Of a DNA stretch of 64,000 bases, positions 50,181-64,000 are shown one piece after another; the first letter of the stretch is position 1; every line of letters starts with the position of its first letter. The DNA is from Acidihalobacter aeolianus (lineage in GTDB: Bacteria > Pseudomonadota > Gammaproteobacteria > DSM-5130 > Acidihalobacteraceae). The stretch covers positions 514,462-578,461 of the forward strand of contig NZ_CP017448.1 of the NCBI RefSeq assembly GCF_001753165.1. The letters are read 5' to 3'. The translations under genes were made by a program, and so were the position numbers. The notes under the pieces were generated by a model. It did not search any database. It worked only from the letters and a program-made list of their open reading frames with translations, and was not told where the DNA came from.

Positions 50181-51797
50181 TTACCGTGCTGTCCGTGTGG
50201 ACTGTGCAATATTGAGCGCGATGGCTTCGGCCACTTCAATGCCGTCGATCGCGGCGGAGAGAATGCCGCCGGCATAACCTGCGCCTTCGCCGGCTGGGTA
50301 GAGTCCTGGTGTGTTGATGCTTTGATAATCAGTGCCACGGCGGATGCGGATGGGCGATGAGGTGCGTGTCTCCACACCGGTTAGCACCGCGTCGTGCTGC
50401 GCGAAGCCATGGATCTGCCGGGCGAACGCAGGGATCGCCTCGCGTATCGCCTCGATGGCGTAGTCAGGTAGGGCGCTGGATAGGTCGCACGGCCGCACCC
50501 CCGGCGTGTAAGAGGGGATGACGGTACCAAGCCCGGTCGACGCGACGCCGGCCAGAAAATCGCCGACCATTTGGGCCGGTGCATGGTAGTTGCGCCCGCC
50601 GAGCTCATACGCACGACTCTCCCACTGACGCTGAAATGCGATGCCGGCCAGCGCGTCTCCAGGGTAATCCGCCGGGCTGATGCCCACCACGATGCCGCTG
50701 TTGGCATTGCGCTCGTTGCGGGAATACTGACTCATCCCGTTGGTGACGACGCGTTCCGGTTCCGAGGTCGCCGCGACCACCGTGCCGCCCGGACACATGC
50801 AGAAGCTATACACCGAACGTCCGTTGCTGGCGTGGTAAGCCAATTTGTAATCGGCTGCGCCCAGCGCCGGATGGCCGGCATTTGGGCCGAGCCGACACGC
50901 ATCGATCAACGATTGTGGATGTTCGATGCGGAAGCCGGCGGAAAACGGCTTCGCCTCCAGGTGTACGCCACGTGTGTGCAGCATCTGGAAGGTGTCGCGC
51001 GCGCTGTGGCCTACCGCGAGAACGACATGATCACTGCGCAGGTGGTCACCATTCGCCAAGTGTACGCCGCGCAATTGTCCATTCTCGATGAGCAGATCGT
51101 CGACCTTGTGCCCAAAACGGATCTCGCCGCCCAGCGACTCGATGGTGGCGCGCATCTTCTCGATCATGCTGACCAGCCGGAAGGTGCCGATATGCGGTTT
51201 GCTTACATAAAGGATTTCCGTCGGCGCGCCGGCCTTGACGAATTCCGTCAGCACCTTGCGTCCGTAATGCTTCGGGTCCTTGATCTGGCTGTGCAGTTTG
51301 CCGTCGGAGAACGTACCGGCGCCGCCTTCGCCGAACTGCACGTTGGATTCCGGATCAAGTACACCTTGCCGCCAAAGTCCGAAGGTGTCTCGCGTGCGCT
51401 CGCGCACGGGCTTGCCGCGTTCCAGGATGATCGGACAAAAACCCATCTGCGCCAGGATCAACCCGGCGAACAACCCGCACGGCCCCATACCGATCACGAC
51501 CGGGCGAGTTGGCAGATCGGCGGTGGCGTGGGTGACGAAGCGATAGGTCGTATCCGGCGCCAGCCCGACATGCGGATCGTCCGCAACACGCGCGAGCACG
51601 GCTGCCTCGTCGCGCAGCACAACATCCACGGTGTAGACGAAAAGAATGCGCGCATGCTTACGGGCATCGATACCGCGACGGAAGATCGTGCAGTCCACCA
51701 CCGCATCCGCGGCGATCCCGAGCCGAGTGGCGATGGCCTGCTGGAGGGCTGCTTCGGCGTGGTCTAGGGGGAGTCTGATTTCAGTCAGTCGCAGCAT
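50181..51797 (-). CDS. NAD(P)/FAD-dependent oxidoreductase (FAD-dependent dehydrogenase family)
   Basis: A 538-residue flavoprotein. An N-terminal alpha/beta domain (about 1-90) precedes the FAD-binding G-M-G-P-C-G-L-F-A-G (about 103-112) and E-R-G-K-P-V motif. N-V-Q-F-G-E-G-G-A-G-T-F-S-D-G-K-L follows near 150, which is diagnostic of this conserved but uncharacterised family. A C-terminal A-G-E-G-A-G-Y-A-G-G-I flavin motif lies near 505. The reaction is unknown. It stands upstream of nothing on its strand in a clear operon; about 90 bp separate it from the 12-gene cluster's last gene, so a link is possible but unproven. Confidence 0.87.
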   Translation of the reverse strand: MLRLTEIRLPLDHAEAALQQAIATRLGIAADAVVDCTIFRRGIDARKHARILFVYTVDVVLRDEAAVLARVADDPHVGLAPDTTYRFVTHATADLPTRPVVIGMGPCGLFAGLILAQMGFCPIILERGKPVRERTRDTFGLWRQGVLDPESNVQFGEGGAGTFSDGKLHSQIKDPKHYGRKVLTEFVKAGAPTEILYVSKPHIGTFRLVSMIEKMRATIESLGGEIRFGHKVDDLLIENGQLRGVHLANGDHLRSDHVVLAVGHSARDTFQMLHTRGVHLEAKPFSAGFRIEHPQSLIDACRLGPNAGHPALGAADYKLAYHASNGRSVYSFCMCPGGTVVAATSEPERVVTNGMSQYSRNERNANSGIVVGISPADYPGDALAGIAFQRQWESRAYELGGRNYHAPAQMVGDFLAGVASTGLGTVIPSYTPGVRPCDLSSALPDYAIEAIREAIPAFARQIHGFAQHDAVLTGVETRTSSPIRIRRGTDYQSINTPGLYPAGEGAGYAGGILSAAIDGIEVAEAIALNIAQSTRTAR

Positions 51798-51888: not shown

Positions 51889-52566
51889 TCATGGTGAGGG
51901 ATGGAGAATGTCGGAGGGCCGGGCTTGGTGCCGTGGCGTCAGGCGCACATTCCGCTTCTTCCTCCTTAAATTCAATTCAATGCCGTCCCCGCCACGATAG
52001 TTCCGCCAGGCCATAGCCGTATTCAGGTCCTCCAGTACCTCACGGTTGCCTTTGATCCAGGCCCGCCGGTCGGGTGGCAGGGCACGCAACTGCAGGTCGA
52101 GGCGCGCGTCGGGCGCCGTCGGGTTCAGGTGCATCAGTGTTTCGGCGAAATCCCTGGCCAGCAGAACTGGATGACCACCGTGGCCCTTGTGCCGGGGTGC
52201 GGCGACCGCGATGCCGGGTTGCAGCGCTCGGATCAATGCATTCAGCAGCCGGGGCGGCCGGGCGGGCACGTCGATGGGCAGGATGAGCACATCGTCGCGT
52301 AGCGGGGCGAGTCCGGTCTGCAGCGAGACGAAGGGTCCGAGGGCGTGGCGTCGGTTCAGGCGCAGGGAAACGCGGCGATGCAGGCAGGCGAGCACGCGCC
52401 GCGGTCTTGCGCCCAGCACCAGGCGTACCTCGCCGCAGCCGGCGGCGCGCAGCGCGTCGATCTGGCGGTCCAGCCAGATGACGCCGCCGGGCAGGCGGCG
52501 GCAGGCCTTGTGACGGCGGCCGGAGCGGCTCGACCGGCCGCCGGCGAGCAGGATCGCCGTCGGCAT
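51889..52566 (-). CDS. Molybdopterin-nucleotidyltransferase-like protein (MocA/MobA type)
   Basis: A 225-residue nucleotidyltransferase: A-I-L-L-A-G-G-R-S-S-R-S-G at the N-terminus (NTP-binding loop), I-D-V-P-A-R-P-P metal Asp near 98-100 and K-G-H-G-G-H-P-V-L-L near 125-134. This G-H-P-V pattern is that of MocA, the CTP:molybdopterin transferase that makes the cytosine-dinucleotide cofactor for xanthine-dehydrogenase-type enzymes. The C-terminus is an unusual basic tail. It is the last gene of the operon that encodes such a molybdoenzyme, 7 bp after the AtzH-like gene, so a cofactor role is well supported by context. Confidence 0.82.
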   Translation of the reverse strand: MPTAILLAGGRSSRSGRRHKACRRLPGGVIWLDRQIDALRAAGCGEVRLVLGARPRRVLACLHRRVSLRLNRRHALGPFVSLQTGLAPLRDDVLILPIDVPARPPRLLNALIRALQPGIAVAAPRHKGHGGHPVLLARDFAETLMHLNPTAPDARLDLQLRALPPDRRAWIKGNREVLEDLNTAMAWRNYRGGDGIELNLRRKKRNVRLTPRHQARPSDILHPSP

Positions 52567-52573
52567 GCGTGCC

Positions 52574-52954
52574 TTAGCCTGCGCGAGGTAGCAGGCTGAC
52601 GTGGGCGGCGACCACGCGCCAGCCCTCGGGTGTGCGCATCCAGGTCTGGCTCTGGCGCCCCTGCACCTCGCCGCGGCGGAACTCGGTGTTCGCGGTGGCG
52701 AAGTCCTCGCCGTAGGTGGTGATCACGGTGTTGACCAGTTCGCGGGCCAGGTTCTGCGCCGGCCGCGAGGCGCGGAAGGCGGCGATAGCCGCGTAGCCGT
52801 AGAGGTTCTCGCCGACGCCGTAGCGCAGCGTGTGCGGGCTGTCCCAGAACAGTTCGTCGAGCACGGCGACGTCGTTGCCGACCAGGGCGGCTTCGTAGCG
52901 CGCGAAGGCGGCCTCGACCTCGGCCACCACGGCAGGCAGATTGATGGGCTGCAT
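52574..52954 (-). CDS. AtzH/HpxZ-like protein (DUF3225)
   Basis: A 126-residue NTF2-fold protein: [19 protein letters not shown] near 39-57, and a C-terminal [18 protein letters not shown]. Relatives are AtzH of Pseudomonas sp. ADP, reported as a 1,3-dicarboxyurea deamidase, and HpxZ of oxalurate catabolism. A role in handling a carboxylated urea-type intermediate is inferred. It begins 4 bp after the AtzE-like gene, within the operon. Confidence 0.88.
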
Positions 52955-52957
52955 GGC

Positions 52958-54355
52958 TTACTCCTTGTGCGCAGCGGGCAGAGGCGCCTCGAAACCGTGA
53001 CGTTCCAGCCAGGCGGCGACACGCAGTGCGTCGGCCTCGCGCCAGGGCGCGGCCACGACCTGCACGCCGATGGGCAGCGTGCCCGGCGTGTGCACCGGCA
53101 CCACCACCACCGGCAGGCCGACGAACGAGAGCGGCTGGGTGTACAGGCCGAGATGCGGGCGCACCATCATTTCCTGGCCGTCGAGAGTCATGTGGCGCTG
53201 GCCGATGGGCGGTGCGTGCATCGGCGTGGCCGGCGCGAGGAGGACGTCGTAACGCTCGAACACGCGGTCCACTTCGCGGCGATACCAGCTGCGGAAACGC
53301 TGCGCCTGCAGCGTCCAGGTGGCTGGCAGCAGGGCGCCGGCGAGCATGCGGTCGCGCACGTCGGGATCGTAGTCCGCGGCGCGCGTGCGCAGGCGCTCCA
53401 GGTGCAGGTTGCTGCTCTCGGCATTGGTGATCAGGTAGGCCGCGGCGCGTGCGCGCGGGGTTTCCGGCAGTTCGACCAGGTGGCGGGCGCCCAGGGTGCG
53501 GGCCACGCGATCCACCGCTTCGATGGCCTGTTCGCTGCCCTGCTGGCGGAAGTAGCCGCCGAGCACCGCGACGCGCAGATCGTCGATCTCGCCCTCCAGG
53601 CGCCCGGCGATCGGCTCCGCGGCGTCCGCATGGCACACCGGGTCGCGCGTGTCCGGGCCCTGCATCGCGTCGAACGCGAGCGCGAGGTCGGTGACGCTGC
53701 GCGCCAGCGGCCCGACGTGATCCAGGCTCGGGCAGAAGGGGTAGCAGCCGGCTCGCGACATGCGTCCGAAGGTGGGCTTCAGGCCGAAGATGCCGCACAG
53801 CGACGACGGCACGCGGATCGAGCCGTTGGTGTCCGAGCCCAGGGCGAGCGGCACCAGGGCGCCGCCGACCGCCGCGCCGCTGCCGCCGCTGGAGCCGCCG
53901 GTCATGTGCGCGGGGTCGTGCGGATTGTGCGACGGGCCGACATGTGCGTTCTCGCCGGTGAAGTCGTAGGCGTACTCGCCCATGTTCAGTGCGCCGAGCA
54001 GGATTGCCCCGGCACGGTGCAGACGTTCGATGACGGTGGCGTCGCGGGTGGCCGGCGGATCGTCGCGGTTGATCTTGGAGCCGGCCAGGGTCACTTCGCC
54101 GGCGATGTCGAACAGGTTCTTGACCGCGTAGGGCACGCCCGCCAGCGGGCCCAGGGTCTCGCCGCGCGCGCGCGCCGCGTCCACCGCCTCGGCCTCGGCC
54201 ACCGCGCGCTTCGAGGTGACCAGGGTGAAGGCGTTGAGCTGGGTGTCGAGGCGCGAGATCCGGCGCAGCGTCTGTTCCAGCACCTCACGCGCGCTGGTCC
54301 GGCCCTCGCGAATCGCGGCGGCGATGGCGGCTGCGGATTCCGGTACGCCGCTCAC
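52958..54355 (-). CDS. AtzE/HpxX-like amidase-signature hydrolase
   Basis: Amidase-signature enzyme of 465 residues. The Ser-cisSer-Lys triad is visible: Lys79 (P-Y-A-V-K-N), Ser155 in G-G-S-S-G-G-S, and nucleophile Ser179 in S-D-T-N-G-S-I-R-V-P. Close family members are AtzE (1-carboxybiuret hydrolase) and HpxX (oxalurate amidase candidate). It should cleave an amide of a ureido-acid product of ring opening. It overlaps the AtzG-like gene (ATGA), and AtzE needs AtzG as a partner subunit, so they probably form a complex. Cytosolic. Confidence 0.92.
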   Translation of the reverse strand: MSGVPESAAAIAAAIREGRTSAREVLEQTLRRISRLDTQLNAFTLVTSKRAVAEAEAVDAARARGETLGPLAGVPYAVKNLFDIAGEVTLAGSKINRDDPPATRDATVIERLHRAGAILLGALNMGEYAYDFTGENAHVGPSHNPHDPAHMTGGSSGGSGAAVGGALVPLALGSDTNGSIRVPSSLCGIFGLKPTFGRMSRAGCYPFCPSLDHVGPLARSVTDLALAFDAMQGPDTRDPVCHADAAEPIAGRLEGEIDDLRVAVLGGYFRQQGSEQAIEAVDRVARTLGARHLVELPETPRARAAAYLITNAESSNLHLERLRTRAADYDPDVRDRMLAGALLPATWTLQAQRFRSWYRREVDRVFERYDVLLAPATPMHAPPIGQRHMTLDGQEMMVRPHLGLYTQPLSFVGLPVVVVPVHTPGTLPIGVQVVAAPWREADALRVAAWLERHGFEAPLPAAHKE

Positions 54356-54543
54356 GGCTCGAATACCGGGGCGGGTTCTTCGGTCATCGGCAGGGGCTGG
54401 GCGTAGAGCGCCTCAGCCATGCGCGCGCTGAGCGCGAAGTAGGTCAGCACCATCTCGCGGTAGGCGGGATCGATCGGCAGATCGACGAGCGCGGCGGCCT
54501 GGTCGACGTAGGCCTCGATTTCGGCGGAGGATTTGAGGGTCAT
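54352..54543 (-). CDS. AtzG/HpxY-like small subunit (DUF4089)
   Basis: A 63-residue helical protein: AEIEAYVDQAAALVDLPIDP, YREMVLTYFALSARMAEAL, and a Pro-rich acidic end. This is the small subunit type that resembles GatC and binds AtzE to form AtzEG. ATG 54543 overlaps the stop of the isochorismatase-like gene upstream and its own stop overlaps the AtzE start, so all three are translationally coupled. Confidence 0.9.
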   Translation of the reverse strand: MTLKSSAEIEAYVDQAAALVDLPIDPAYREMVLTYFALSARMAEALYAQPLPMTEEPAPVFEP

Positions 54544-55241
54544 GGCGAACTCCGTATAACGGGCGAGACAGGATGGGAAGCGAACGCGCGGAGCACGTCG
54601 GCGAGTGCTGCGGTCCAGCCGACGATGGCCCCCTGCGCACGCACCATTTCGAGGGTGGCGCGCTTGAATTCGGGGAAATAGCTTTCGGTGGCCTCTTCGA
54701 CCAGCAGGCATTCGTAGCCGCGGTCGTTGGCCTCGCGCAGAGTGCTCTGCACGCAGACCTCGGTGGTGACGCCGCCGACCACCAGATGGGTGATGCCGAG
54801 GCGCTCCAGGTGCGCGCCGAAATCGGTGGCGTAGAACGCGCCCTTGCCGGGCTTGTCGATCACGGTCTCGCCCGGCAGCGGACGGCACTCGGGCACGATC
54901 TCGGTGCCCGTCTCGCCGGCGACGAGCAGGCGCCCCATCGGCCCCGCGTCGCCGATGCGCAGCGGCGGTTCGCCGCGCAGCCGCTTGGCGGGCGGACAAT
55001 CGGCAAGGTCCGGGCGGTGCGCCTCGCGGGTGTGCAGCACGGGCAGGCCGAGCGCGCGGAAGGTCTCCAGCAGGCGGCGGCAGGCCTCGATCGCGGGCCG
55101 CAGGCGCGAGACGTCGTTGCCCAGGCTGGCGCCGAAGCCGCCGGGCTCGACGAAGTCGCGCTGCAGATCGATCAGCAGCAGCGCAGTGCTGTCCGCCCGA
55201 CAGCGGTAGGCAAAGGGACGGGCGTCGATTTCGAAGCTCAT
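54540..55241 (-). CDS. Isochorismatase-fold cysteine hydrolase (biuret-hydrolase/RutB-like)
   Basis: Cysteine amidohydrolase of 233 residues. The triad is Asp25 (L-L-L-I-D-L-Q-R-D-F), Lys133 (K-P-G-K-G-A-F-Y-A-T) and Cys163 (G-V-T-T-E-V-C-V-Q-S-T). Relatives are biuret hydrolase (BiuH), RutB (ureidoacrylate hydrolase) and N-carbamoyl hydrolases. Within this operon it probably releases ammonia from a linear ureido or carbamoyl intermediate. It overlaps both neighbours by 4 bp. The exact substrate cannot be set from sequence. Confidence 0.88.
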   Translation of the reverse strand: MSFEIDARPFAYRCRADSTALLLIDLQRDFVEPGGFGASLGNDVSRLRPAIEACRRLLETFRALGLPVLHTREAHRPDLADCPPAKRLRGEPPLRIGDAGPMGRLLVAGETGTEIVPECRPLPGETVIDKPGKGAFYATDFGAHLERLGITHLVVGGVTTEVCVQSTLREANDRGYECLLVEEATESYFPEFKRATLEMVRAQGAIVGWTAALADVLRAFASHPVSPVIRSSP

Positions 55242-56179
55242 GGCCGCGCAATGTCCTCCGCGGCGGCGGTGCGCAGGGCGAGCAGCTCGGCCATGACGCT
55301 GACCGCGATCTCGGCCGGTCGCTTGCCGAGGCCGGGCAGGCCGATGGGCATGTGCAGGTCGCGCGGCGCGAGGCCCTCGCGTTCGAGCGCGTGGCGGAAA
55401 CGGGCCGCCTTGGAGCGGCTGGCGATGACGCCGAGGTAGGCGAGCGGCCGGGCGGCGAAATGGGCGAGCACTTCGAAGTCCAGGGTGTGGCTGTGCGTCA
55501 TGATCAGCACCACCGCGTCGGCCGGCGGCTCGGGCAGGGCGGCGGGATCGATCGTGAGGCTGACCCGCGCCGCCGGCGGGAAGGCCAGCGGGTCGGCCCA
55601 TTCGGGGCGGGCGTCGAACACGCGCACCGCGTAGTCGAGGTCGGCGGCGATGCGCGCCACCGCGCGTCCCACGTGGCCGGCGCCGAACAGCCACAGGGGC
55701 GTGCGCCGGCGTGCGGGCAGCACGAACCGGCTGCCGTCGGCGAGGTAGCCGGGCGCGTCCGCGCCGGCGAGTGCGGCGCGGGTCTCGCTGCCGAGCGCGC
55801 GCCCCTCGGCGGTGATGCCGCCCGCCAGATGCAGACGACCGTCGGCGACCGCGTAGACGCGCGAGGCGCCCGGCGCGTACAGGGCGGCGAGCAGCGGCGG
55901 CACGGGCACGATGTGCGCCTGCGCGTGCCCGCCGCAGCACTGGTCAGTGCCGTGTCCCAGGGTGAAGTCGATACCGCGGGCGACCTGCGGATCGGCCCGC
56001 AGCGCGGCCTGCAGCGCGTGTTCCATGCGTCCGCCGCCGACCGTGCCGGAGAAGCGTCCGTCCGCGAGCAGGCACATCCCGTCGCCGACCGCCGCGGGCG
56101 CGGAACCGCGCACCTCGGTGATCAGCGCCTCGGCCAGCGGCCGTTCGGGGGCGGCGGCGGGATGCAGCGAGGCGCTCAT
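55238..56179 (-). CDS. xdhC: XdhC-family molybdoenzyme maturation factor
   Basis: A 313-residue XdhC/CoxI protein, the chaperone that binds the molybdenum cofactor, assists its sulfuration and inserts it into xanthine-dehydrogenase-family enzymes. Marks: G-S-A-P-A-A-V-G-D-G-M near 24-34, G-T-V-G-G-G-R-M-E near 45-53, C-C-G-G-H near 81-85, the C-terminal Rossmann motif L-W-L-F-G-A-G-H-V-G-R-A and G-V-I-A-S-R-S-K. Both adjacent genes overlap it by 4 bp, so it is fully embedded in the operon with the molybdoenzyme. Confidence 0.92.
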   Translation of the reverse strand: MSASLHPAAAPERPLAEALITEVRGSAPAAVGDGMCLLADGRFSGTVGGGRMEHALQAALRADPQVARGIDFTLGHGTDQCCGGHAQAHIVPVPPLLAALYAPGASRVYAVADGRLHLAGGITAEGRALGSETRAALAGADAPGYLADGSRFVLPARRRTPLWLFGAGHVGRAVARIAADLDYAVRVFDARPEWADPLAFPPAARVSLTIDPAALPEPPADAVVLIMTHSHTLDFEVLAHFAARPLAYLGVIASRSKAARFRHALEREGLAPRDLHMPIGLPGLGKRPAEIAVSVMAELLALRTAAAEDIARP

Positions 56180-57276
56180 GCGTCGACTCTCGCGATCATC
56201 GCCACCGGCCCGCCGCCGAGCGGTCCGTGATGCTCGGCGCGGGTGGAGACGTATACGGCGGTCTCGCCGGTGACGCCGGCAAGCAGGGCGGACACCACGC
56301 AGCGCGAATAGCGCATGTCGGAGATGTCGGCGTCGGTCCACATGGTGTGGCGGCGGCCGCGAATCCGGTGGCGCGGGTCGGCGTCGGATTTGGCGAAGAT
56401 GCCGACCAGGCGCGCGGTCTGTTCCGGGGCGAGCTGACCGGGTGCCGTCAGGCCGAGGCGGGCGAGCACGTCGCGGATCGCGTCGAGGTCGATGATGTCG
56501 CGCATCACGCCATGCTCGATGACGAGATCGCCGTCCCACCACGCCGAGTTGGCGAACAGGGTGATTTCGGAGCGGGGCAGCCCAGGCTTGGCCGAGACGC
56601 TGGCGCGGGTGGAGAACAGCGACCAGTCGCGGCACACGGCGTCATCCCCGGCCGCGGCGTCATCGATCTCGCCCAGGGCGATGCCCACCCCGAGCGCGGA
56701 GGCGGCGCGCGAGCCGACCATGTCGCAGCGCAGCGGCCGGCCCTCGGCCTCGGCGGGGACCCGCTGGGTCTCGTCGTAGCCAGGAATGGCGCCCTTGATC
56801 TGTACCAGATGCACGTCGGAAGGGTCGTCGACGGCGAGTTCGCGCATCAGCTCGCGGACCACGCGCGCGGTCTCTTCCATCATCGGCCGATAGCCGATCT
56901 CGCGGGGTTCGAGGGCGCGGGTATGGCCGGTGGCGATGGCGAGGCGCTTGGGCGTCCGCGGTGCCGCCAGGGCCGCCCCGCGCCGCGAGAGGATCAGCAG
57001 GTGCGGACTCACGACGCCCTCGGTGCCGCCTGAGAAGGACAGCACGATGCGCTCCTCGATGGCCTCCGGCGCGCATTCGAGGCGCGGCGCGAGCAGGTCG
57101 CCCAGCGCCCGCGTGGCCAGTTCGCGGGTGAAGTCGTTGACCCCGCCGTTGCCCTCGGTCTTGCCGATCACGGCGAGGATTTCATCCGCGCGCAGTTCGC
57201 CGGCGTCGAGCAGGGCGGCGAGGCCCGAGACGTCGCCGGGGCCGGCGGTGGCCACACGGTGGGCGATGATCCGCAT
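56176..57276 (-). CDS. Ring-opening amidohydrolase (cyanuric acid hydrolase/barbiturase family)
   Basis: Toblerone-fold hydrolase of 366 residues in three repeats. All three Ser-Lys dyads can be seen: Lys39 (G-K-T-E-G-N) with Ser82 (F-S-G-G-T-E-G), Lys161 (I-K-G) with a Ser near 226-228, and Lys296 (F-A-K-S-D) with Ser344 (V-S-T-R-A-E-H-H-G-P). The C-terminal G-P-L-G-G-G-P-V is a family hallmark. Members open cyanuric acid to carboxybiuret or barbituric acid to ureidomalonate. The nearby molybdenum hydroxylase suggests that the ring substrate is made by oxidation in the same operon. Which ring is cleaved is unknown. Confidence 0.9.
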   Translation of the reverse strand: MRIIAHRVATAGPGDVSGLAALLDAGELRADEILAVIGKTEGNGGVNDFTRELATRALGDLLAPRLECAPEAIEERIVLSFSGGTEGVVSPHLLILSRRGAALAAPRTPKRLAIATGHTRALEPREIGYRPMMEETARVVRELMRELAVDDPSDVHLVQIKGAIPGYDETQRVPAEAEGRPLRCDMVGSRAASALGVGIALGEIDDAAAGDDAVCRDWSLFSTRASVSAKPGLPRSEITLFANSAWWDGDLVIEHGVMRDIIDLDAIRDVLARLGLTAPGQLAPEQTARLVGIFAKSDADPRHRIRGRRHTMWTDADISDMRYSRCVVSALLAGVTGETAVYVSTRAEHHGPLGGGPVAMIARVDA

Positions 57277-57290
57277 GCGTGCGTCCCGGT

Positions 57291-57869
57291 CTAGAACGGC
57301 ACCCGCAGGACGCGGCCCGTGTGACGTTCGATGTTGATCTTGTAGACGTCGCCGGCGTCCATGTCGTCGGCGGTCTTGGCCTCGGCGAGGGCCTTGACCA
57401 CTTCCTCGGAATTCATCGTCAGCACCGTCACCGGGTTCTCGAAGGCCATCGGGAAATCGTGCCAGGTCCCGGCGTGGATCATGATGCCGTGGCCGGGCGG
57501 AATGCGGAACGCGACCACGTCCTCCAGCACCGGCCGACTGGCGCCGGTGTCCTGGTTCGGCTTGCCGAGAACCATCGCGAAGGGCTGGTCGCCCAGGCCC
57601 ACGAACAGCTGGGTCATGCGCAGGTGGCGTTCCAGCCAGGTGATTTCCGCGCTGCGATGGGAGATGCGCGCGGTGCGCACCACGGCGCGCTCGTGATAGA
57701 CGAAATCGAGGTTCTGGCCCTCTTCCACGCTGCCCTTGTAGAAGGGGATGGGCAGGCCGGGCTTGAGCACGCTGTCGCCGATCATCAGGCCGTATTCGGC
57801 GGTGTTCTCGGGCGTGGCGTCCACCAGCGGGACGTCGACGTAGCGTTGTGCGGCGGTTTGCGACGACAT
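57291..57869 (-). CDS. Ureidoglycolate-lyase-family (AllA-like) cupin protein
   Basis: A 192-residue cupin of the AllA type: H-R-S-A-E-I-T-W-L-E-R-H near 70-81 and the I-P-P-G-H-G-I-M-I-H-A-G-T-W-H-D-F-P second motif near 122-139. AllA splits ureidoglycolate into glyoxylate and urea at the end of allantoin breakdown. Here there is no allantoinase or allantoate hydrolase, so it may act on another ureido acid such as ureidomalonate, or may be a sensor. It sits 14 bp before the ring-opening hydrolase gene. Confidence 0.85.
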   Translation of the reverse strand: MSSQTAAQRYVDVPLVDATPENTAEYGLMIGDSVLKPGLPIPFYKGSVEEGQNLDFVYHERAVVRTARISHRSAEITWLERHLRMTQLFVGLGDQPFAMVLGKPNQDTGASRPVLEDVVAFRIPPGHGIMIHAGTWHDFPMAFENPVTVLTMNSEEVVKALAEAKTADDMDAGDVYKINIERHTGRVLRVPF

Positions 57870-57898
57870 GACGGGAATCCTCCTTGCGTTTTTCGTTG

Positions 57899-58777
57899 TC
57901 AGACGGACGGTGCGCCGGGCGGCGTGCGCAGCGCGGTCAGCAGCAGGCGTGCGGCCACCTCCAGCCGGTAGGCGGCGGTTGAGCGGATGTCGTCCAGGGG
58001 CCTGATGTCCTGGGCGAGGTGCCGGCGCAGGGTCGCGGTGTCGACCGCCTCCGGGCGCTGGCCGACCAGCCAGTCCTCGACGGCGGGCAGCGCGGCGGGA
58101 GCGGGGCCCACGCTGGCGAGGCCGAAGCGGGCGCTGTGCACGGCGCCGGCGGCATCCAGGCGCAGGCGCGCGGCCAGACTGAGCTTGGCGATGGCCTGCG
58201 CCTGCCGGGTGCCGACCTTGCGGTGGAACTCGATGGCGGGCCCCGGCTTGGGCGCCGGCAGATGGAGCGCGACGATCAGTTCGTCCGCGCGCATCCGGGT
58301 CTGCTTGTAGCCGGTATGGAACTCGCGGTAGGGCAAGCGGCGTCGGCCTTGCGGGCCGGCCAGCTCGATGAGGGCGTCATAGACCAGCAGGGCGGGCGGG
58401 TTGTCCGCGGCCGGGGAGGCGTTGGCGACGTTGCCGCCCAGGGTCGCGCGGTTCTGGATCGGCAGCGCGCCGGTCACCGCCGCGGTGGCGGCGAGCAGCG
58501 GGTAGCTCTCGCGCACCCGTCGATCGCGGGCGATGCGCCGCAGGGGCACGCAGGCGCCGATGCGCAAGCCGCCGTCGCTGGCGTAGAGCCCGGACAGTTC
58601 GCTCACGGCGGTCAGGTCGAGCCAGTTGCGCTCGTCCGCGACGGGATGAAGACGCTGCTCGACCATCAGGTCCGTGCCTCCGGCGATGATCCGCCAGGCC
58701 CCGTCGGCGTTGCCGCCGAGCAGGCGCATCGCCTCGGCGAGGGTACGCGGTCTAGCCCACACGGCTGTGCGTCTCAT
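57899..58777 (-). CDS. Molybdenum hydroxylase FAD-binding medium subunit
   Basis: FAD subunit (CoxM/XdhB type) of 292 residues. The FAD motifs are I-I-A-G-G-T-D-L (about 31-38) and T-L-G-G-N-V-A-N-A-S-P-A-A-D (about 110-123). It receives electrons from the iron-sulfur subunit and passes them to NAD+ or another acceptor. ATG 58777 lies inside the end of the 2Fe-2S gene (26-bp overlap); an upstream in-frame extension is not subunit-like. It forms a three-part enzyme with the genes at 58752 and 60279. Confidence 0.92.
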   Translation of the reverse strand: MRRTAVWARPRTLAEAMRLLGGNADGAWRIIAGGTDLMVEQRLHPVADERNWLDLTAVSELSGLYASDGGLRIGACVPLRRIARDRRVRESYPLLAATAAVTGALPIQNRATLGGNVANASPAADNPPALLVYDALIELAGPQGRRRLPYREFHTGYKQTRMRADELIVALHLPAPKPGPAIEFHRKVGTRQAQAIAKLSLAARLRLDAAGAVHSARFGLASVGPAPAALPAVEDWLVGQRPEAVDTATLRRHLAQDIRPLDDIRSTAAYRLEVAARLLLTALRTPPGAPSV

Positions 58778-59237
58778 GAGTCTGCGCGGCGGCCTCCTCC
58801 GCGGCGGCGGCCACGGCCGCATAGATGCGCGTGTAGCCGGTGCAGCGGCACAGGTTGCCGGCGAGGCCCTCGCGGATCTCGGCGAGGTCGGGGTGAGGGT
58901 GATCGGCGAGCAGCGCCGTCGCCGCCATCAGCATGCCGGGCGTGCAGATGCCGCATTGGGTGCCGCCGTGTGCGGCGAAGGCGCGGCGCAGCGGCGACTC
59001 GGCGGGAACGCCTTCGACGGTCTGCACGCGGCAGCCGTCGAGCTGGCCCATGGGTACCAGACAGCTGTTCACCAGCACGCCGTCGACCAGCACGGCGCAG
59101 GCGCCGCATTCGCCCTCGCCGCAGCCTTCCTTGGCCCCGGTCAGGCCGAGAGTTTCGCGCAGGTAGTCGAGCAGCCGGGTGTCCGGGCGGCAGGCGGCGC
59201 TGTGCTGGGCATCGTTGACGGTCAGGCGCAGGTGCAT
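58752..59237 (-). CDS. Molybdenum hydroxylase 2Fe-2S small subunit
   Basis: Iron-sulfur subunit (CoxS/XdhC-small type) of 161 residues. The plant-type cluster ligands are Cys39, Cys44, Cys47 and Cys59. The C-terminal cluster uses Cys95, Cys98, Cys130 and Cys132 (Q-C-G-I-C-T-P and L-C-R-C-T-G-Y). Both sets are complete, so electron transfer should be intact. It overlaps the FAD-subunit gene and starts 28 bp after the NUP gene. The reaction of the complex is hydroxylation of a carbon in an N-heterocycle using water. Confidence 0.94.
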   Translation of the reverse strand: MHLRLTVNDAQHSAACRPDTRLLDYLRETLGLTGAKEGCGEGECGACAVLVDGVLVNSCLVPMGQLDGCRVQTVEGVPAESPLRRAFAAHGGTQCGICTPGMLMAATALLADHPHPDLAEIREGLAGNLCRCTGYTRIYAAVAAAAEEAAAQTHETHSRVG

Positions 59238-59265
59238 GGGCGGCTCCGTTGACGTGTGCTCGTGA

Positions 59266-60282
59266 TCATTTGCCCATGGCCTCCGACGCGCTCAGCGGGT
59301 AGTGCGTGGCGGGCACGCGATCGGCGCTCATCGCCTGGGCGATCTGCTTCGGGTGCGCCAGGACATAATCGACGAAGGCGTTGCCGACGCGGTAGGCGTT
59401 CTCGAAGGCGATGCGGCCTCCGGGGTAATTGTGTTCGAGCAGCCAGGCGGCAGCGGTTTCGCCGGGTGGCGGCTGGTCGAAGTCGCTGATCGTGCGCAGG
59501 CTGAGGTAATGCGAGAGCAGGCCGCGTCGCGCCATCGCGTCGGCGTCGCCGGTCTCCTCCATCGCGGTGGTTACGTAGCGCGCGGCACCGTGGGTGTAGT
59601 AGTCGACGATCTGTTGCGCGAGCCGCGACAGCTCGACGCCGGACCAGAAGTCGTCGCCGGTGACGGTCGCGCCGACGCCGACTTGGGGCTGGCGGTTGGC
59701 CTGGCCGGGATACAGCTTGCGGTTGTTCATCGCAGGGAGGTCGTCGGCCAGCGGAATCTCGCGGGTGACCTCGAAGGCCAGATTGACCAGCCAGGGGTTG
59801 AGCTTGAAGGCCTCGGTGCCGAGCGGCGGCTGGTCGTCGCCCAGCGGCAGGAAGCGCGGTTCGGGCTGACCGTGCGAAATCGCCGTGAGGTGATGGCCGA
59901 GATCCCAGGAAATCACCCAGTCGGACCAGTAGGCGCCGCCGAGGGTGTCCTGCCCCCAGGGCGGGCCGCCGGCGATGCCGGCACGCAGCACCAGGGCCTG
60001 TGTCATGTCGAGCTGGCTGCTGGCGAGCAGGGCCGAGACGGTGGTGGCGGAATTGACTTGCGCCTCACCGGTTTCGGTCACGCACACCTGGCGGGTGTCG
60101 CACCACACCGGGGCGTAGGCGCCGGCGACCTTGAGTTCGGTTGGGTCCTTCATGTGCTTGAGCCAGGGCGCGAGTTCGGGCGGGAAGGCGGCGAGCACCA
60201 TCACCTTGACCGGCACCGCGGCGAAGGCGCCGGGGGCGATCAGCAACAGGCCGATAAGCATTCGGGTAAGCAGGCGTTTCAT
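59266..60282 (-). CDS. Purine nucleoside permease (NUP)-family protein with signal peptide
   Basis: A 338-residue NUP-family protein (named from a fungal nucleoside permease but built like a nucleoside phosphorylase). A clear export signal (basic M-K-R-L-L-T-R, then a hydrophobic core ending A-F-A near residue 21) places it in the periplasm. Motifs include V-L-A-A-F-P-P-E-L near 29-37, L-R-A-G-I-A-G-G near 98-105 and V-T-T-A-M-E-E-T near 235-242. It may bind or split nucleosides before uptake by the divergent ABC transporter. It overlaps the molybdopterin-subunit stop (ATGA). Confidence 0.83.
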   Translation of the reverse strand: MKRLLTRMLIGLLLIAPGAFAAVPVKVMVLAAFPPELAPWLKHMKDPTELKVAGAYAPVWCDTRQVCVTETGEAQVNSATTVSALLASSQLDMTQALVLRAGIAGGPPWGQDTLGGAYWSDWVISWDLGHHLTAISHGQPEPRFLPLGDDQPPLGTEAFKLNPWLVNLAFEVTREIPLADDLPAMNNRKLYPGQANRQPQVGVGATVTGDDFWSGVELSRLAQQIVDYYTHGAARYVTTAMEETGDADAMARRGLLSHYLSLRTISDFDQPPPGETAAAWLLEHNYPGGRIAFENAYRVGNAFVDYVLAHPKQIAQAMSADRVPATHYPLSASEAMGK

Positions 60283-62522
60283 GCGACATCCTTGTGGTCG
60301 GTCGTGAGCTTTGCGAGCAGGTGTTCGGGCAGGATCGGCACGGCATCGATGTTTACGCCGAGGGCGTGGCGGACGGCATTGGCCACCGCCGGAGCGGGGC
60401 CGTCCATCGGCAGCTCGCCGATGCCCTTGGCGCCGCCGGGGCCGGGGGCGTCGGCGGTTTCCTGGAAGAAGACACGGATCGGTGGCAGGTCGGCGCTGGT
60501 CGGCAGGATGTAGTTGGTGATGCGGTCGTTGGCCATCACCCCGGCATCGTTCCACACCACGTCCTCCAGAAGCGCGAGGCCGATGCCCTGGGCGACGCCG
60601 CCCTCGATCTGACCGGCGGCGATCACCGGATGCACCGCGCGGCCGATCTCCTGCACGGCGACGAAGTCGCGCACACTCACGGCGAGGGTATCGAGATCGA
60701 CCTCGACGTCGGCGACGTAGGTGGCCCAGGCGTAGCTGGCGTAGGCCGCGCCGCGGAAGTGTTGGTCGTCCCATTCGACCCCGGTAGGGGCGCGGTACTG
60801 GGCGATCTCGACGGTATTCCCGCCGGCGGCGTGCAGGCGGGCGCAGGCCGCGGCGAAGGCGGCCTCGTCGTATTGCCCGGGCAGACCGGCCTCGGCGCTC
60901 AGCCGCTCGATCATCGTGCGGGCGGCATCCTGGATCAGTCGTCCGACGACCATGCAGGTGCGCGAGGCCACCGTGGGGCCGGAATTCGGCACCACCTGGG
61001 TATCGGTCGGCGCGACGCGGACGCGGGCGATCGGCAACTGCAGCGCGTCGGCCGCGATCTGGGTGAAGGTGGTGGCCATGCCCTGGCCGATCTCGGTGCT
61101 GGAGCTCAGCAGCTCGACGAGGCCGTCCGCGGTGACGCGCAGGCCGGCCCTGGAGCGCAGGTTGACCTCGCCGTTGCCGGTGAAGCCGGAGCCGTGGCAG
61201 AAGGTGGCGAGACCGATGCCGCGGCGCGTGCGGTGGCCGGCGCGGTTCCAGGCCTCGTGCGCGGCGCGCCGCTGGGCGTAGTCGCTTTCCGCGAGCGCCT
61301 GTGCGAGCACGGCGTCGGCCACCGCGTCGTCGCCCGCGAGCTGGCCGGTGGCCGAGCGGTCGCCCGGCGCGAGCAGGTTGCGCCGGCGCAATTCGGCGGG
61401 GTCGAGCCCCAGCCGTTCGGCCAGACGGTCGAGCGCCGCTTCCAGGGCGAAGATGCTCTGCGGCGCGCCGAAGCCGCGGAAGGCGCCGAAGGGCGGGTGG
61501 TTGGAGGCCACCGCGCGGCCGCGCACGCGAACGTGCTCGCAGCGGTAGGGGCCGGGGGCGTGGATCACGCCGCGCGACAGCACCACCGGGCTGAGCGTGG
61601 TGTAGGCGCCACCGTCGAGTGCGAAGTCGAAATCGATCAGACACAGTCGGCCGTCGGCGTCGGCGCCGACGCGCACGCGGCTGCGCGAGGGGTGGCGCTT
61701 GGGCGTGGCGCGCATGTCCTCGCCGCGGTCGTAGATCATCTTCACCGGGCGCCCGCTCGCCTTGAGCGCGAGCAGAGCGACGTGGCAGGCGATCATCGAG
61801 GGGTATTCCTCCTTGCCGCCGAAACCGCCGCCGGTGGCCGTCTGCACGACGCGGATGCGCTCGGCCGGCAGGCCGGTGGCGTGCACCAGGGCGTCGAGCA
61901 CGTAATAAGGGCACTGCATCGAGCCCTCGATGCGCAGTTCGCCGTCGGGCATCAGGTGCCCGATCATGCCCTGCGGCTCGATGTAGACATGCTCCTGCGC
62001 GCCGGTGCGGAAGGTGCCCTCGATCACCGCGGCGGCCTGGCGCTCGCCCTCGGCGAGGTCGCCCTTGGCCAGGGTGTAATCGGTGAAGACGTTGTCCGGC
62101 ACGATGCGCCGCGACGAGACCAGTGCCTCGTCCACGTCGAACAGCGGTTCCGGTCCCGGCGTTTCGATCACTTCGATATGCGCCAGCGCCTCGGCCAGAC
62201 GTGCGCGGTCGGGGTGGGCGATCAGCGCCACCGGCTCAGCGGCATGGCGGTATTCGCCGGCGGCGAGCACCGGCTGGTCTTCAGCGATGGCCTTGACGCA
62301 GTTGGCGCCGGGAATGTCGGCGGCGGTCACGATCACGAATTCGGACCAGTCGCGGTCGGGATCGAGGCAGATGCCGCCCAGCGTGCCGCCCGGATGGCAG
62401 GTGCGCAGGGTCGCGGCGTGGAGCATGTCCGGATAGACGATGTCGTCCACGTAGCGCGCGCGGCCGGCAAGCTTGTCGTCCGCATCCACGCGTATCGGGC
62501 TGGTGCCGATGGTGTCGCTCAA
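60279..62522 (-). CDS. Molybdenum hydroxylase molybdopterin-binding large subunit (xanthine-dehydrogenase family)
   Basis: Catalytic subunit of 747 residues. The cofactor region has G-G-G-F-G-G-K-E (about 244-251) and the F-R-G-F-G-A-P-Q motif near 354. The essential Glu is Glu703 in G-G-A-K-G-I-G-E-L-P. Xanthine dehydrogenase, nicotinate and other N-heterocycle hydroxylases share this fold, so substrate is not fixed. The start is a TTG at 62522 with AGGAGACCAGGA upstream; no ATG fits the ribosome site. It is the first gene of a 12-gene operon down to 51889, headed by the sigma-54-like promoter and operator at 62565-62597. Confidence 0.93.
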   Translation of the reverse strand: MSDTIGTSPIRVDADDKLAGRARYVDDIVYPDMLHAATLRTCHPGGTLGGICLDPDRDWSEFVIVTAADIPGANCVKAIAEDQPVLAAGEYRHAAEPVALIAHPDRARLAEALAHIEVIETPGPEPLFDVDEALVSSRRIVPDNVFTDYTLAKGDLAEGERQAAAVIEGTFRTGAQEHVYIEPQGMIGHLMPDGELRIEGSMQCPYYVLDALVHATGLPAERIRVVQTATGGGFGGKEEYPSMIACHVALLALKASGRPVKMIYDRGEDMRATPKRHPSRSRVRVGADADGRLCLIDFDFALDGGAYTTLSPVVLSRGVIHAPGPYRCEHVRVRGRAVASNHPPFGAFRGFGAPQSIFALEAALDRLAERLGLDPAELRRRNLLAPGDRSATGQLAGDDAVADAVLAQALAESDYAQRRAAHEAWNRAGHRTRRGIGLATFCHGSGFTGNGEVNLRSRAGLRVTADGLVELLSSSTEIGQGMATTFTQIAADALQLPIARVRVAPTDTQVVPNSGPTVASRTCMVVGRLIQDAARTMIERLSAEAGLPGQYDEAAFAAACARLHAAGGNTVEIAQYRAPTGVEWDDQHFRGAAYASYAWATYVADVEVDLDTLAVSVRDFVAVQEIGRAVHPVIAAGQIEGGVAQGIGLALLEDVVWNDAGVMANDRITNYILPTSADLPPIRVFFQETADAPGPGGAKGIGELPMDGPAPAVANAVRHALGVNIDAVPILPEHLLAKLTTDHKDVA

Positions 62523-62564
62523 AGTTCCTGGTCTCCTGGCAAGTGCGCCGCCGCGCTCAATCTC

Positions 62565-62582
62565 ATGCAACGATGTATGCAA
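62565..62582. promoter_or_regulatory. Operator copy A before the molybdoenzyme operon
   Basis: ATGCAACGATGTATGCAA lies about 45 bp upstream of the TTG start at 62522. It differs from copy C (62857-62874) at three positions, each an A/T exchange, and it touches the -12 end of the sigma-54-like promoter. Binding there could block transcription. Confidence 0.6.
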
Positions 62583-62597
62583 GCAGAATGCGTGCCA
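62581..62597 (-). promoter_or_regulatory. Sigma-54-type -24/-12 promoter candidate
   Basis: On the minus strand TGGCACGCATTCTGCTT places GG and GC exactly 10 nt apart, as in the TGGCAC-N5-TTGC consensus (one mismatch before GC). It is about 60 bp upstream of the operon's first codon. NtrC-activated sigma-54 control would suit nitrogen scavenging from heterocycles. Confidence 0.5.
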
Positions 62598-62856
62598 GTC
62601 ATGGGCTATAGATCGATGCATGCAGAGCGTGGGCCAGACCGGGTTATGGCGTGGCGGGACTGCGGAGCGCGATTTCTTTGTGCCCCAATATAGTGCATGA
62701 CCTGTTCCGCAGCACTCGGATCGAGCGTTGTGCAGGGGCTCGGGCCCGGTGTTGCGCGCCCCTGAAACGGTCCGAATCTTGCTCCAATCAGGCGCCGCCG
62801 CGACCCTCGAAGCATCCCGTGCCGGTGCGGTCCTTGCTGGCATCAATCGTGAATAC

Positions 62857-62874
62857 ATGCATCGTTGTATGCAT
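62857..62874. promoter_or_regulatory. Operator copy C before the ABC transporter gene
   Basis: ATGCATCGTTGTATGCAT ends about 30 bp upstream of ATG 62904. ATGCAT occurs at both ends of the element (direct and inverted, as it is palindromic). It matches copy A, so one regulator probably controls both directions. Confidence 0.6.
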
Positions 62875-62903
62875 AAGTCGATGAGCAAAGTTTGCCTGAT
62901 TGC

Positions 62904-64000
62904 ATGAATTCTGACACCTCCCAGAACGTGACCGCCGTGCAGCCGCCGCGCCTCGAACTCGTGGGGCTGACCAAGCGTTTTCCAGGCGTGCTCGCCAACG
63001 ACCGGGTCGACGTGAGCGTCCGCGCCGGCGAGATTCATGCCCTGCTGGGCGAGAACGGCGCCGGCAAGAGCACGCTGATGAAGATGATCTACGGCCTGCT
63101 CGCGCCCGACGAGGGTTCGATCCTGTGGGAAGGCCGCGAGACCGTGATCGATGGGCCGGTGCATGCGCGTCGCCTCGGCATGGGCATGGTGCAGCAACAT
63201 TTTTCCCTGCTCGAAAGCCTCACCGTGGCCGAGAATCTGGCGCTCACGCTGAACCGGCGCGGACGCTGGGAGCCCGCGCGCGTGGCCGCACGCGTGGCCG
63301 AGGCGGAAGGCCGCTACGGTCTGGCGGTCGAGCCGCGCCGGCCGGTGCACAGCCTGTCGGTCGGGCAGCGCCAGCGGGTCGAGATCCTGCGCTGCCTGCT
63401 GCAGGAGGAACCGCTCAAGCTGCTGATCCTCGACGAGCCGACCGCGGTGCTCACGCCGCAGGAAGTGGGCGGGCTGTTCGAGGTGCTGCGCCGGCTTGCC
63501 GCGCAGGGGCTGAGCATCCTGTTCGTCAGCCACAAGCTCGACGAGGTCAAGGCGCTGTGCGAGCGCGTCACCGTGCTGCGCGGCGGCAGGGTGGTCGCGC
63601 GCCGCGACATGGCGGACGTAACGGTGGACGAGCTGGCCACGCTGATGGTCGGCGACCGCCCGCCGGCCCTGCGCGCGCGTCGCGCGGTGGCCGGCGCCGG
63701 CGAGGTCCGCCTGGCGCTGCAGGGGCTCGATCTAGCGCCAGACCATCCGCACGGCACCGCGCTGAGTCGAGCCTCCCTGGAGCTCAGGCGCGGCGAGATC
63801 CTGGGGCTGGCCGGGGTTTCGGGCAACGGCCAGCAGGAACTGCTCGCCGCGCTGGTGGGCGAGCGTCCGGTGCCGGCCGACTGTGTGCTGATCGACGGCG
63901 AACCGGTGGGCCGGATGGGCGTGGCCGAACGCCGCCGGCGCGGACTGCGCTACGTGCCGGAGGATCGTCTGGGTACCGGCGCCGTGCCCAGCCTCTCTTT
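62904..64000 (+). CDS. ABC transporter ATP-binding protein, nucleoside/BMP-type (partial)
   Basis: An uninterrupted frame of 365 codons continues past the window edge. It is a two-domain ATPase of the ribose/nucleoside (NupO/YufO-like) type. The first domain has Walker A G-E-N-G-A-G-K-S-T (about 48-56), signature L-S-V-G-Q-R-Q-R and Walker B L-L-I-L-D-E-P-T. The second begins about 265, with the degenerate loop G-V-S-G-N-G-Q-Q-E-L-L and Y-V-P-E-D-R-L-G-T-G. Such ATPases pair with BMP-family lipoproteins to import nucleosides or nucleobases. Permease genes should follow outside the window. The start overlaps a possible 8-codon leader (TGA at 62905-62907). Confidence 0.92.
   Translation, partial: MNSDTSQNVTAVQPPRLELVGLTKRFPGVLANDRVDVSVRAGEIHALLGENGAGKSTLMKMIYGLLAPDEGSILWEGRETVIDGPVHARRLGMGMVQQHFSLLESLTVAENLALTLNRRGRWEPARVAARVAEAEGRYGLAVEPRRPVHSLSVGQRQRVEILRCLLQEEPLKLLILDEPTAVLTPQEVGGLFEVLRRLAAQGLSILFVSHKLDEVKALCERVTVLRGGRVVARRDMADVTVDELATLMVGDRPPALRARRAVAGAGEVRLALQGLDLAPDHPHGTALSRASLELRRGEILGLAGVSGNGQQELLAALVGERPVPADCVLIDGEPVGRMGVAERRRRGLRYVPEDRLGTGAVPSLS

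Follow-up and report, generated by a model that had tools for sequence, protein, structure and literature searches.

What ring is broken down by a gene cluster that sets a xanthine dehydrogenase (XDH)-like molybdenum hydroxylase beside relatives of cyanuric acid- and oxalurate-processing enzymes? Such a cluster occupies positions 51889–64000 of a 64,000-nucleotide stretch of Acidihalobacter aeolianus DNA (the window; contig 1, bases 514462–578461, in a genome of 3.5 Mb). We find the unit to be a real, conserved purine-type operon with two uncharacterised core enzymes, an AllA-like cupin and a Group IV member of the AtzD/barbiturase (Toblerone) family, undescribed within the open-licence literature searched. 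The probable function of the gene set is to import purine nucleosides, convert them oxidatively to uric acid and degrade this without uricase or the allantoin enzymes. That it serves, in general terms, to scavenge purine nucleosides by way of a urate route independent of uricase and allantoin we hold to be an evenly balanced proposition. We advance tentatively a more specific form: an undescribed urate breakdown in Acidithiobacillus and the Acidihalobacter family, in which the cupin and the Group IV enzyme would replace uricase, 5-hydroxyisourate (HIU) hydrolase, 2-oxo-4-hydroxy-4-carboxy-5-ureidoimidazoline (OHCU) decarboxylase and allantoinase, taking urate to an oxalurate-type acid in two, possibly oxygen-free, steps. 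The sequence itself shows gene content, conservation, XDH motifs, the Group IV signature and TrtA residues; HIU hydrolase, OHCU decarboxylase and classical uricase gave no match.

Twelve minus-strand genes and a divergent ABC ATPase, as described in an earlier note on this DNA, are all present by profile matches, on the strands given there and overlapping or nearly so:

51889–52566, minus strand: MocA/MobA-like nucleotidyltransferase for molybdenum cofactor maturation (PF12804, 94.8 bits; TIGR03310 MocA, 56 bits, under its cut-off of 186)
52574–52954, minus strand: AtzH/HpxZ-like protein (PF11533, 195 bits; NF033625 HpxZ, 204 bits, over its cut-off of 135)
52958–54355, minus strand: AtzE/HpxY-like amidohydrolase (PF01425; TIGR02715, 708 bits, over its cut-off of 426)
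54352–54543, minus strand: AtzG/HpxX-like small subunit (PF13318, 62 bits)
54540–55241, minus strand: TrtA-type triuret hydrolase, isochorismatase fold (PF00857; TrtA residues; nearest solved chain 6xix)
55238–56179, minus strand: XdhC-like molybdoenzyme maturation factor (PF13478 and PF02625)
56176–57276, minus strand: Group IV ring-opening amidohydrolase of the AtzD/barbiturase (Toblerone) family (PF09663, 426 bits)
57291–57869, minus strand: AllA-like cupin adjoining the Group IV AtzD (PF04115, a weak 44.5 bits, over its cut-off of 23)
57899–58822, minus strand: FAD subunit of the molybdenum hydroxylase (PF00941, PF03450)
58752–59237, minus strand: 2Fe-2S subunit of the molybdenum hydroxylase (PF00111, PF01799)
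59266–60282, minus strand: NUP-family protein, probable exported nucleosidase/phosphorylase fold (PF06516, 207 bits; signal-like N-terminus by eye)
60279–62522, minus strand: large molybdopterin subunit, xanthine dehydrogenase-like, with a TTG start (best PDB match 1jro_B, a xanthine dehydrogenase)
About 62904–64000, plus strand: NupA-like ABC ATPase, divergent from the minus-strand unit and cut by the window end

Conservation of the operon

The comparison of gene order that the earlier note proposed finds the core order kept in G263, G358 and all 12 Acidithiobacillus loci (loci are coded L and genomes G; G000 is the window's own genome, G263 is of the same genus and G358 of the same family). 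G263 has the minus-strand operon, including trtA, and a divergent nupA–nupB–nupC–bmp–ada–atzF operon. G358 has xdhL–NUP–FeS–FAD–cupin–atzD–xdhC–atzG–atzE–atzH–mocA, without trtA; between its cupin and atzD lies a gap with no recognisable gene among the short open frames, judged by reading and with no family search made. Of 17 genomes from the genus of Acidithiobacillus ferrianus, 11 encode an atzD at 60–63% identity. The three molybdoenzyme subunits, the cupin and atzD are present in 12 of the 12 Acidithiobacillus loci compared, and xdhC, atzE, atzH, mocA and a gamma-glutamyltransferase-like gene follow atzD in 11, L018 stopping after atzD. Directly upstream of the molybdoenzyme genes, ten of the 12 carry permease, guanine deaminase-like, adenosine deaminase and NUP genes. 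The A. caldus SM-1 megaplasmid holds the same gene kinds, split by insertion sequences, with ExbB, ExbD and TonB ahead of them, and a LysR regulator and a TonB receptor lie within or next to the cluster in eight of the 12 stretches. Because the core gene order is kept in both G358 and Acidithiobacillus, the genomic record argues against chance juxtaposition of the core genes.

Any match to the window atzD was found in only five of 369 genomes sampled from the class (the window's own included); cupin matches occur in 31 of 398 genomes sampled from the phylum, exceeding 60% only in the own genome and G013 and reaching 28–41% in the others. At one Acidithiobacillus locus, L020, transposase-like frames stand upstream in place of the purine genes (by reading).

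Purine context of the molybdoenzyme

The GGGFGGKE, SRGVIH and GELP stretches of the large molybdoenzyme subunit align with XDH, its nearest solved structure being a xanthine dehydrogenase. By this alignment it keeps the Glu, Arg and Glu stretches of the XDH active site (E802, R880 and E1261 in the bovine enzyme). The adenosine deaminase of the Acidithiobacillus unit scores 479 bits against a cut-off of 419, its guanine deaminase-like protein 317 bits to a subfamily model (below the cut-off of 351), and its permease is of the cytosine/purine type (PF02133). Beyond the window end (L003), the genes after the NupA-like ATPase encode two permeases, a BMP-family binding protein carrying a twin-arginine signal, adenosine deaminase (540 bits; cut-off 419), the allophanate hydrolase AtzF (759; cut-off 511) and an M20 amidohydrolase that is allantoate-amidohydrolase-like, of the carbamoylase family. 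The NUP gene is kept in relatives.

Adenosine deaminase, the guanine deaminase-like, NUP and permease genes of relatives, and the XDH motifs point to purines rather than pyrimidines as the probable substrate class. The earlier note had allowed a purine, a pyrimidine or a related ring; the evidence narrows this towards the first and away from the second. An oxidative pyrimidine pathway, from uracil through barbiturate to ureidomalonate, would explain an AtzD/barbiturase fold next to a molybdenum hydroxylase. It sits badly with purine-enzyme neighbours, with conserved XDH motifs and with a ring-opening enzyme that lacks the Asn, His, Lys, Val and Ser/Ala of barbiturase, and we regard it as highly improbable.

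A Group IV ring-opening enzyme

Profile, fold and residues place the ring-opening enzyme in the AtzD/barbiturase family. It keeps three Ser–Lys pairs (K39/S82, K161/S228 and K296/S344) and three arginines (R51, R190 and R325), and its AlphaFold model (predicted local distance difference test, pLDDT, 89) has the Toblerone fold, with 6bum the best PDB match (template-modelling score, TM, 0.88). Its Lys162–Arg195 stretch is three residues shorter than that of the Moorella enzyme. The signature of cyanuric acid hydrolases is Arg195, Thr321, Arg325, Gly345 and Gly346, according to the available text of Peat et al. (PMC3758960). At these positions the window enzyme has R, M, R, T and R (M321, T345 and R346), departing from that signature as it does from the barbiturase one (Asn195, His321, Lys325, Val345 and Ser/Ala346) and agreeing with that of Group IV (Arg195, Met/Thr321, Arg325, Thr345 and Arg346). 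The earlier description of the ring opener as a cyanuric-acid-hydrolase/barbiturase-type enzyme is not supported by these residues, though the protein does pass the NCBIfam cut-off for cyanuric acid hydrolase.

Among 41 AtzD-family sequences aligned and placed in a tree (16 cluster-type and 25 others, including cyanuric acid hydrolases and one barbiturase), the cluster-type proteins form one clade (support 1.000), with Ser344–Thr345–Arg346 and either Met or Thr at 321. The Thr345–Arg346 pair occurs in all 16 Group IV sequences and none of the 25 others. Group IV was described in 2013 with members from Acidithiobacillus and Sulfobacillus, perhaps with a role unique to their physiology, and the accessible text names no tested member (Peat et al., PMC3758960). 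The present set also includes G013 and L022, a Deltaproteobacteria metagenome-assembled genome, so the group is not confined to those two genera. Sulfobacillus is not among the loci obtained; the contig scan kept 80 loci, mostly from Bradyrhizobium.

Might the enzyme be a cyanuric acid hydrolase after all? For cyanurate and triuret scavenging as a nitrogen source, the AtzD-like protein would open cyanuric acid and TrtA triuret, AtzGEH and AtzF would finish, and the molybdoenzyme would prepare some other heterocycle or simply share the locus. The NCBIfam score, the presence of TrtA and AtzF, and a similar BMP/ABC importer beside atzDGEHF on pADP-1 and beside atzD and a TrtA-like gene in Rhizobium all fit. 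The specificity signature, however, is unlike that of characterised cyanuric acid hydrolases, and the Acidithiobacillus stretches have purine genes instead of TrtA. Moreover, G358 and Acidithiobacillus sp. HP-2 (L015, L090) encode a second AtzD-family protein with the Gly345–Gly346 signature, apart from the purine cluster, which would make an extra cyanuric acid hydrolase redundant there. We consider this scavenging role improbable.

In a further reading, the Group IV enzyme would itself hydrolyse the ring of urate, of xanthine or of a carboxylated compound such as oxonate, in the manner of the clostridial xanthine route. Urate would then yield a ureido-imidazole carboxylate, to be processed by AtzGEH, the cupin and M20/hydantoinase-type steps. 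Extra basic residues near the pocket suit this idea (Arg346 in 16 of 16; Lys instead of Gly after Ala/Ser234 in the four Group IV rows viewed), as do the M20 carbamoylase-family gene of the neighbouring operon and the related PDB entry 5hy0, whose title, orotic acid hydrolase, points to substrates beyond cyanurate and barbiturate in this family. Direct opening leaves the HpxW-like amidase unexplained, however; the M20 gene was undetected in the G263 stretch compared, and the substrate is a predicted one. We rate it as quite improbable.

Pairing with an AllA-like cupin

The cupin passes the PF04115 cut-off and falls well under that of the AllA equivalog (34.1 against 260). It keeps the LERH and GTWH of AllA-like rows; HxH, the cupin metal motif, is not seen, and His132 is Tyr in one of 15 aligned proteins. 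A structure prediction of mean pLDDT 49.8 was not used.

Gene neighbourhoods were compared between 16 Group IV loci (the window not counted) and 81 other AtzD-family loci, mostly Bradyrhizobium and several of them short. The cupin lies at most 2.5 kb from atzD at 16 of 16 Group IV loci versus 0 of 81 others. NUP and HpxW-like genes occur within 8 kb at 11 of the 16 and none of the 81, and XDH within 5 kb at 12 of the 16 and one of the 81 (L095); four non-Group IV loci with XDH-like genes were compared by distance. By coordinates, the four Group IV loci without XDH inside this distance comprise a split stretch (L017), a gene beyond a 1.3 kb gap (L011) and two cupin–atzD pairs standing alone (L013 and L022). 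As the pair occurs at L013 and L022 without molybdoenzyme genes beside it, the cupin and the Group IV enzyme seem to form the minimal unit.

An unannotated Novosphingobium plasmid (L129) encodes a 32% relative of the cupin. On Polaromonas pE10SP1 (L131), the neighbours of an AtzD-family gene include a dihydropyrimidinase, a racemase-family protein and a gene annotated as ureidoglycolate lyase, a further AtzD–AllA association in an allantoin-like setting; that lyase is too dissimilar to register as this cluster's cupin in the neighbourhood comparisons. We also considered the cupin as the carboxybiuret decarboxylase TrtB, which is said to co-occur with TrtA and AtzD in the available text of PMC7948467. 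The Rhizobium TrtB candidate, itself identified by inference only, is Cupin_7, another Pfam family, and we set this identity aside provisionally.

Search for the usual urate–allantoin route

Uricase (PF01014), HIU hydrolase (PF00576) and OHCU decarboxylase (PF09349) gave no match in the window genome, with control genomes positive; PuuD- and HpxO-type urate oxidases were not searched. HIU hydrolase was found in none of 17 Acidithiobacillus genomes, and no protein exceeded the allantoinase cut-off (TIGR03178) in nine genomes, related cyclic amidohydrolases reaching 274 against 358. The earlier remark that neither uricase nor allantoinase is seen holds over this range. A dihydropyrimidinase/hydantoinase-type protein (G748, contig 23, 67074–68426) lies about 9 kb from the HpxW-like gene and scores 198 bits to the allantoinase model, below the cut-off; G750 encodes a similar protein near its cluster.

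An FAD-dependent protein (PF21688) at 50181–51797, on the same strand and following mocA, was examined as a urate oxidase and set aside: its Pfam family is generic, and it occurs only in the window's own genus (G000 and G263). This comparison was made by BLAST over the loci compared, in a database that included alignment rows BLAST could not read.

Downstream enzymes

The AtzE-like protein has 6c62 (AtzE) as nearest solved structure (503 bits) and is 53% identical to pADP-1 AtzE and 50% to K. pneumoniae HpxY; cluster AtzE proteins form their own clade (0.997 in the tree), and the tree does not choose between AtzE and HpxY. AtzG, AtzE and AtzH have homologues in the carboxybiuret module and in HpxXYZ alike, and the name AtzH/HpxZ does not discriminate, because pADP-1 AtzH is also annotated hpxZ.

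The gamma-glutamyltransferase-like gene groups (support 0.925) with the Klebsiella/Serratia gene beside hpxX, which we take to be HpxW (the Serratia gene is annotated gamma-glutamyltransferase). The A. ferrianus protein shares 43–55% identity with the Klebsiella hpxW region versus 27–31% with three paralogues. Genes at least 56% identical to it occur in all seven core genomes (G000, G263, G358 and G747–G750), lying away from the cluster in the first three; in G013, which has the cupin–atzD pair only, the best HpxW-like match is 31%. Next to the HpxW-like gene in G000 (L174, 6891–9536; PF01925) and G358 (L175, 6205–8825; the PF01925 test covering L174 only) is a TauE/SafE-like permease, which might export an end product, and a PurH-like gene lies nearby in both genomes (by reading).

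The earlier assignment of an isochorismatase-fold hydrolase is upheld by PF00857 and can be refined to TrtA-like. Its nearest chain is 6xix, followed by 6xj4 and 6xje, the latter two named TrtA in the accessible text of PMC7948467. It retains 11 of 11 TrtA residues (D24, F35, N41, E72, K129, K132, T158, E160, C162, Q202 and I205), and the catalytic triad with the TrtA-specific F35, N41, E160 and I205 predicts membership of that group. A Rhizobium BiuH-like protein differs at four of these 11 positions and is 46% identical, versus 66% for the Rhizobium TrtA-like protein; residues and scores rule out biuret hydrolase and RutB. The stretches compared from G358 and the 12 Acidithiobacillus loci contain no trtA, a result that covers these stretches and not the whole genomes. 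AtzF exceeds 50% in four of the seven core genomes (G000, G263, G748 and G749; some genomes may be incomplete) and also occurs in A. ferrianus and HP-2. Since the HpxW-like gene is in seven of seven core genomes and AtzF in four, the HpxW-type ending is the more constant, and TrtA and AtzF look like additions.

These two enzymes make oxidative cleavage of urate the main alternative, because it would account for both. The cupin would split C4=C5 with oxygen to give a nine-membered cyclic oxalyl-triuret, whose hydrolysis with the Group IV enzyme would yield carboxybiuret and oxamate, or oxalurate and allophanate, or triuret and oxalate, leaving AtzGEH/AtzF, HpxW and TrtA to finish. The fragments match the enzymes present (AtzGEH, the HpxW-like protein, AtzF and TrtA), and the available text of the TrtA paper ties triuret to urate oxidation (PMC7948467). 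The cupin's missing metal motif and its replaceable His132 count against an oxygen chemistry, however, as do the patchy AtzF and the stretches from which TrtA is missing. We think oxidative cleavage unlikely.

A proposed route from purines to a ureido acid

We infer every reaction that follows, and particularly all those after urate, from sequence. The importer would bring in a nucleoside or base. Adenosine deaminase and the exported NUP protein, joined in relatives by guanine deaminase, would turn it into hypoxanthine or xanthine, and the XDH-type molybdenum hydroxylase would oxidise these to urate. From there on, the AllA-like cupin would act as a pair with the Group IV AtzD-like enzyme. The cupin would release urea from urate, or from a hydrated or oxidised form, to leave a barbiturate-type ring, dialurate or alloxan, and the Group IV enzyme would open this to tartronurate or mesoxalurate, ureido acids homologous to oxalurate. 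Removal of the ureido nitrogen would then fall to AtzGE and AtzH, by analogy with the action of HpxXYZ on oxalurate, and the HpxW-like amidase would free the last ammonia. In the window's genus, where TrtA and AtzF are added, carboxybiuret derived from triuret could be a further substrate of these AtzGEH enzymes.

Under this urea-release reading, the Acidithiobacillus order cupin–atzD–(xdhC)–atzG–atzE–atzH–(mocA)–hpxW is the order of the reactions. The reading is plausible by analogy, as it would use for each family its known type of chemistry. The chosen intermediates, from urea release through a barbiturate-type ring to a ureido acid, we regard as doubtful in their particulars. A complete route of import, oxidation, opening and deamination, as the earlier note had it, survives as a gene set for a nucleobase, with two steps whose chemistry is only proposed.

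Several observations weigh against the urea-release reading. We know of no precedent for urea release from urate by an AllA-like enzyme, and of no activity for any Group IV enzyme or for the AllA-like cupin. The NCBIfam cyanuric acid hydrolase model (NF052395) is passed at 395.2 against 360, at odds with the residue signature. The large molybdoenzyme subunit falls under the NCBIfam XDH equivalog cut-offs (pucD 438 against 784; XdhA 381 against 780) and is thus XDH-like, not proven XDH, and at L013 and L022 Group IV atzD has no adjoining molybdoenzyme genes at all. The neighbourhood contrast leans on a comparison set dominated by Bradyrhizobium, with several short loci. Within it, adjacency to atzE is unspecific: atzE-like matches lie within 5 kb at 13 of 16 Group IV loci and at 54 of the 81 others, the latter mostly amidases of about 26% identity. 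Cluster AtzE groups (0.998) not with HpxY but with four alphaproteobacterial proteins, of which two have their genes adjacent to atzF or clustered with it; AtzG is under the NCBIfam HpxX cut-off (23.4 against 70); and the HpxW-like gene of the window genome lies about 50 kb past the window end. TrtA in the operon and AtzF nearby fit carboxybiuret/triuret chemistry at least as well. Urease alpha occurs in only four of nine cluster genomes, some of which may be incomplete, so urea may be wasted in the rest. The uricase search of the window genome, finally, covered the classical enzyme and not the PuuD or HpxO types. We hold the pathway claim to be plausible, not proven.

Intergenic repeats and flanking genes

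The divergent intergenic region contains operator-like repeats, found by repeat search:

62564–62581, no strand: operator-like repeat, copy 1
62856–62873, no strand: operator-like repeat, copy 2 (18 bases, 89% identical to copy 1)

A weaker third copy of the 18-base repeat lies at 62607–62624. The repeats are possible sites of one regulator serving both divergent operons. Beyond the window, an ISL3-family transposase (L003, 10361–11368) separates the M20 amidohydrolase from a permease-like gene that has no Pfam match.

Significance and comparison with known systems

A conserved purine-type operon gives Group IV, unexplained since 2013, a concrete substrate class and a likely job. If the urate reading is true, purine catabolism, which is usually shown as running through uricase and allantoin, gains another branch, and acidophiles that oxidise iron and sulfur could obtain nitrogen from nucleic-acid debris. 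There is also a warning for annotation: an AtzD-family protein that scores above the cyanuric acid hydrolase cut-off may act on something else.

The earlier note knew of no described pathway with this set. We likewise found no description of the cluster in the open-licence literature, a scope that is not proof of absence, although Group IV itself had been flagged as unexplained in the available text of the 2013 paper (PMC3758960). In the portions available, Esquirol et al. 2018 (PMC6219798) does not describe this gene set; the Azorhizobium cyanuric acid hydrolase is covered by PMC4051656.

The nearest relative in gene content on one side is the atzDGEHF operon of Pseudomonas sp. ADP (pADP-1), which shares an AtzD-family enzyme, AtzG, AtzE, AtzH, AtzF and a BMP-type ABC importer. 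Unlike the present unit, it lacks genes for a molybdoenzyme, NUP or an AllA-like protein in the stretch compared, which has 15 features, and its AtzD carries Gly345–Gly346. On the other side stands the HpxWXYZ oxalurate/oxamate module of Klebsiella and Serratia, all four members of which have homologues here. There the module follows the allantoin pathway; here neither uricase nor HIU hydrolase was found, and an AtzD-like enzyme is paired with a cupin.

Triuret clusters share TrtA, AtzF and a BMP/Nup importer. In Herbaspirillum and Rhizobium, trtA is accompanied by biuH and atzF, and uric acid has been suggested as the source of triuret, according to the available text of Tassoulas et al. 2020 (PMC7948467). 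The accessible text of a 2025 floodplain nitrifier paper describes a triuret cluster with trtB and a bmpA–nupABC importer in ammonia-oxidising bacteria, whose known upstream purine genes its authors report to be absent (PMC12625717). In contrast to such clusters, no BiuH gene was found beside TrtA in the window, and the small cupin beside the Rhizobium TrtA-like gene is Cupin_7 (PF12973), not of the AllA family.

The orotic acid hydrolase 5hy0, its function known from the PDB title, shares the Toblerone fold at 31–33% identity. The closest parallel for the ring-opening enzyme itself is Group IV of Peat et al. 2013 (PMC3758960), with the same residue signature and with A. caldus SM-1 in both sets; where the available text of that study gives no gene context or substrate for the group, the loci compared here place it in a purine-type operon.

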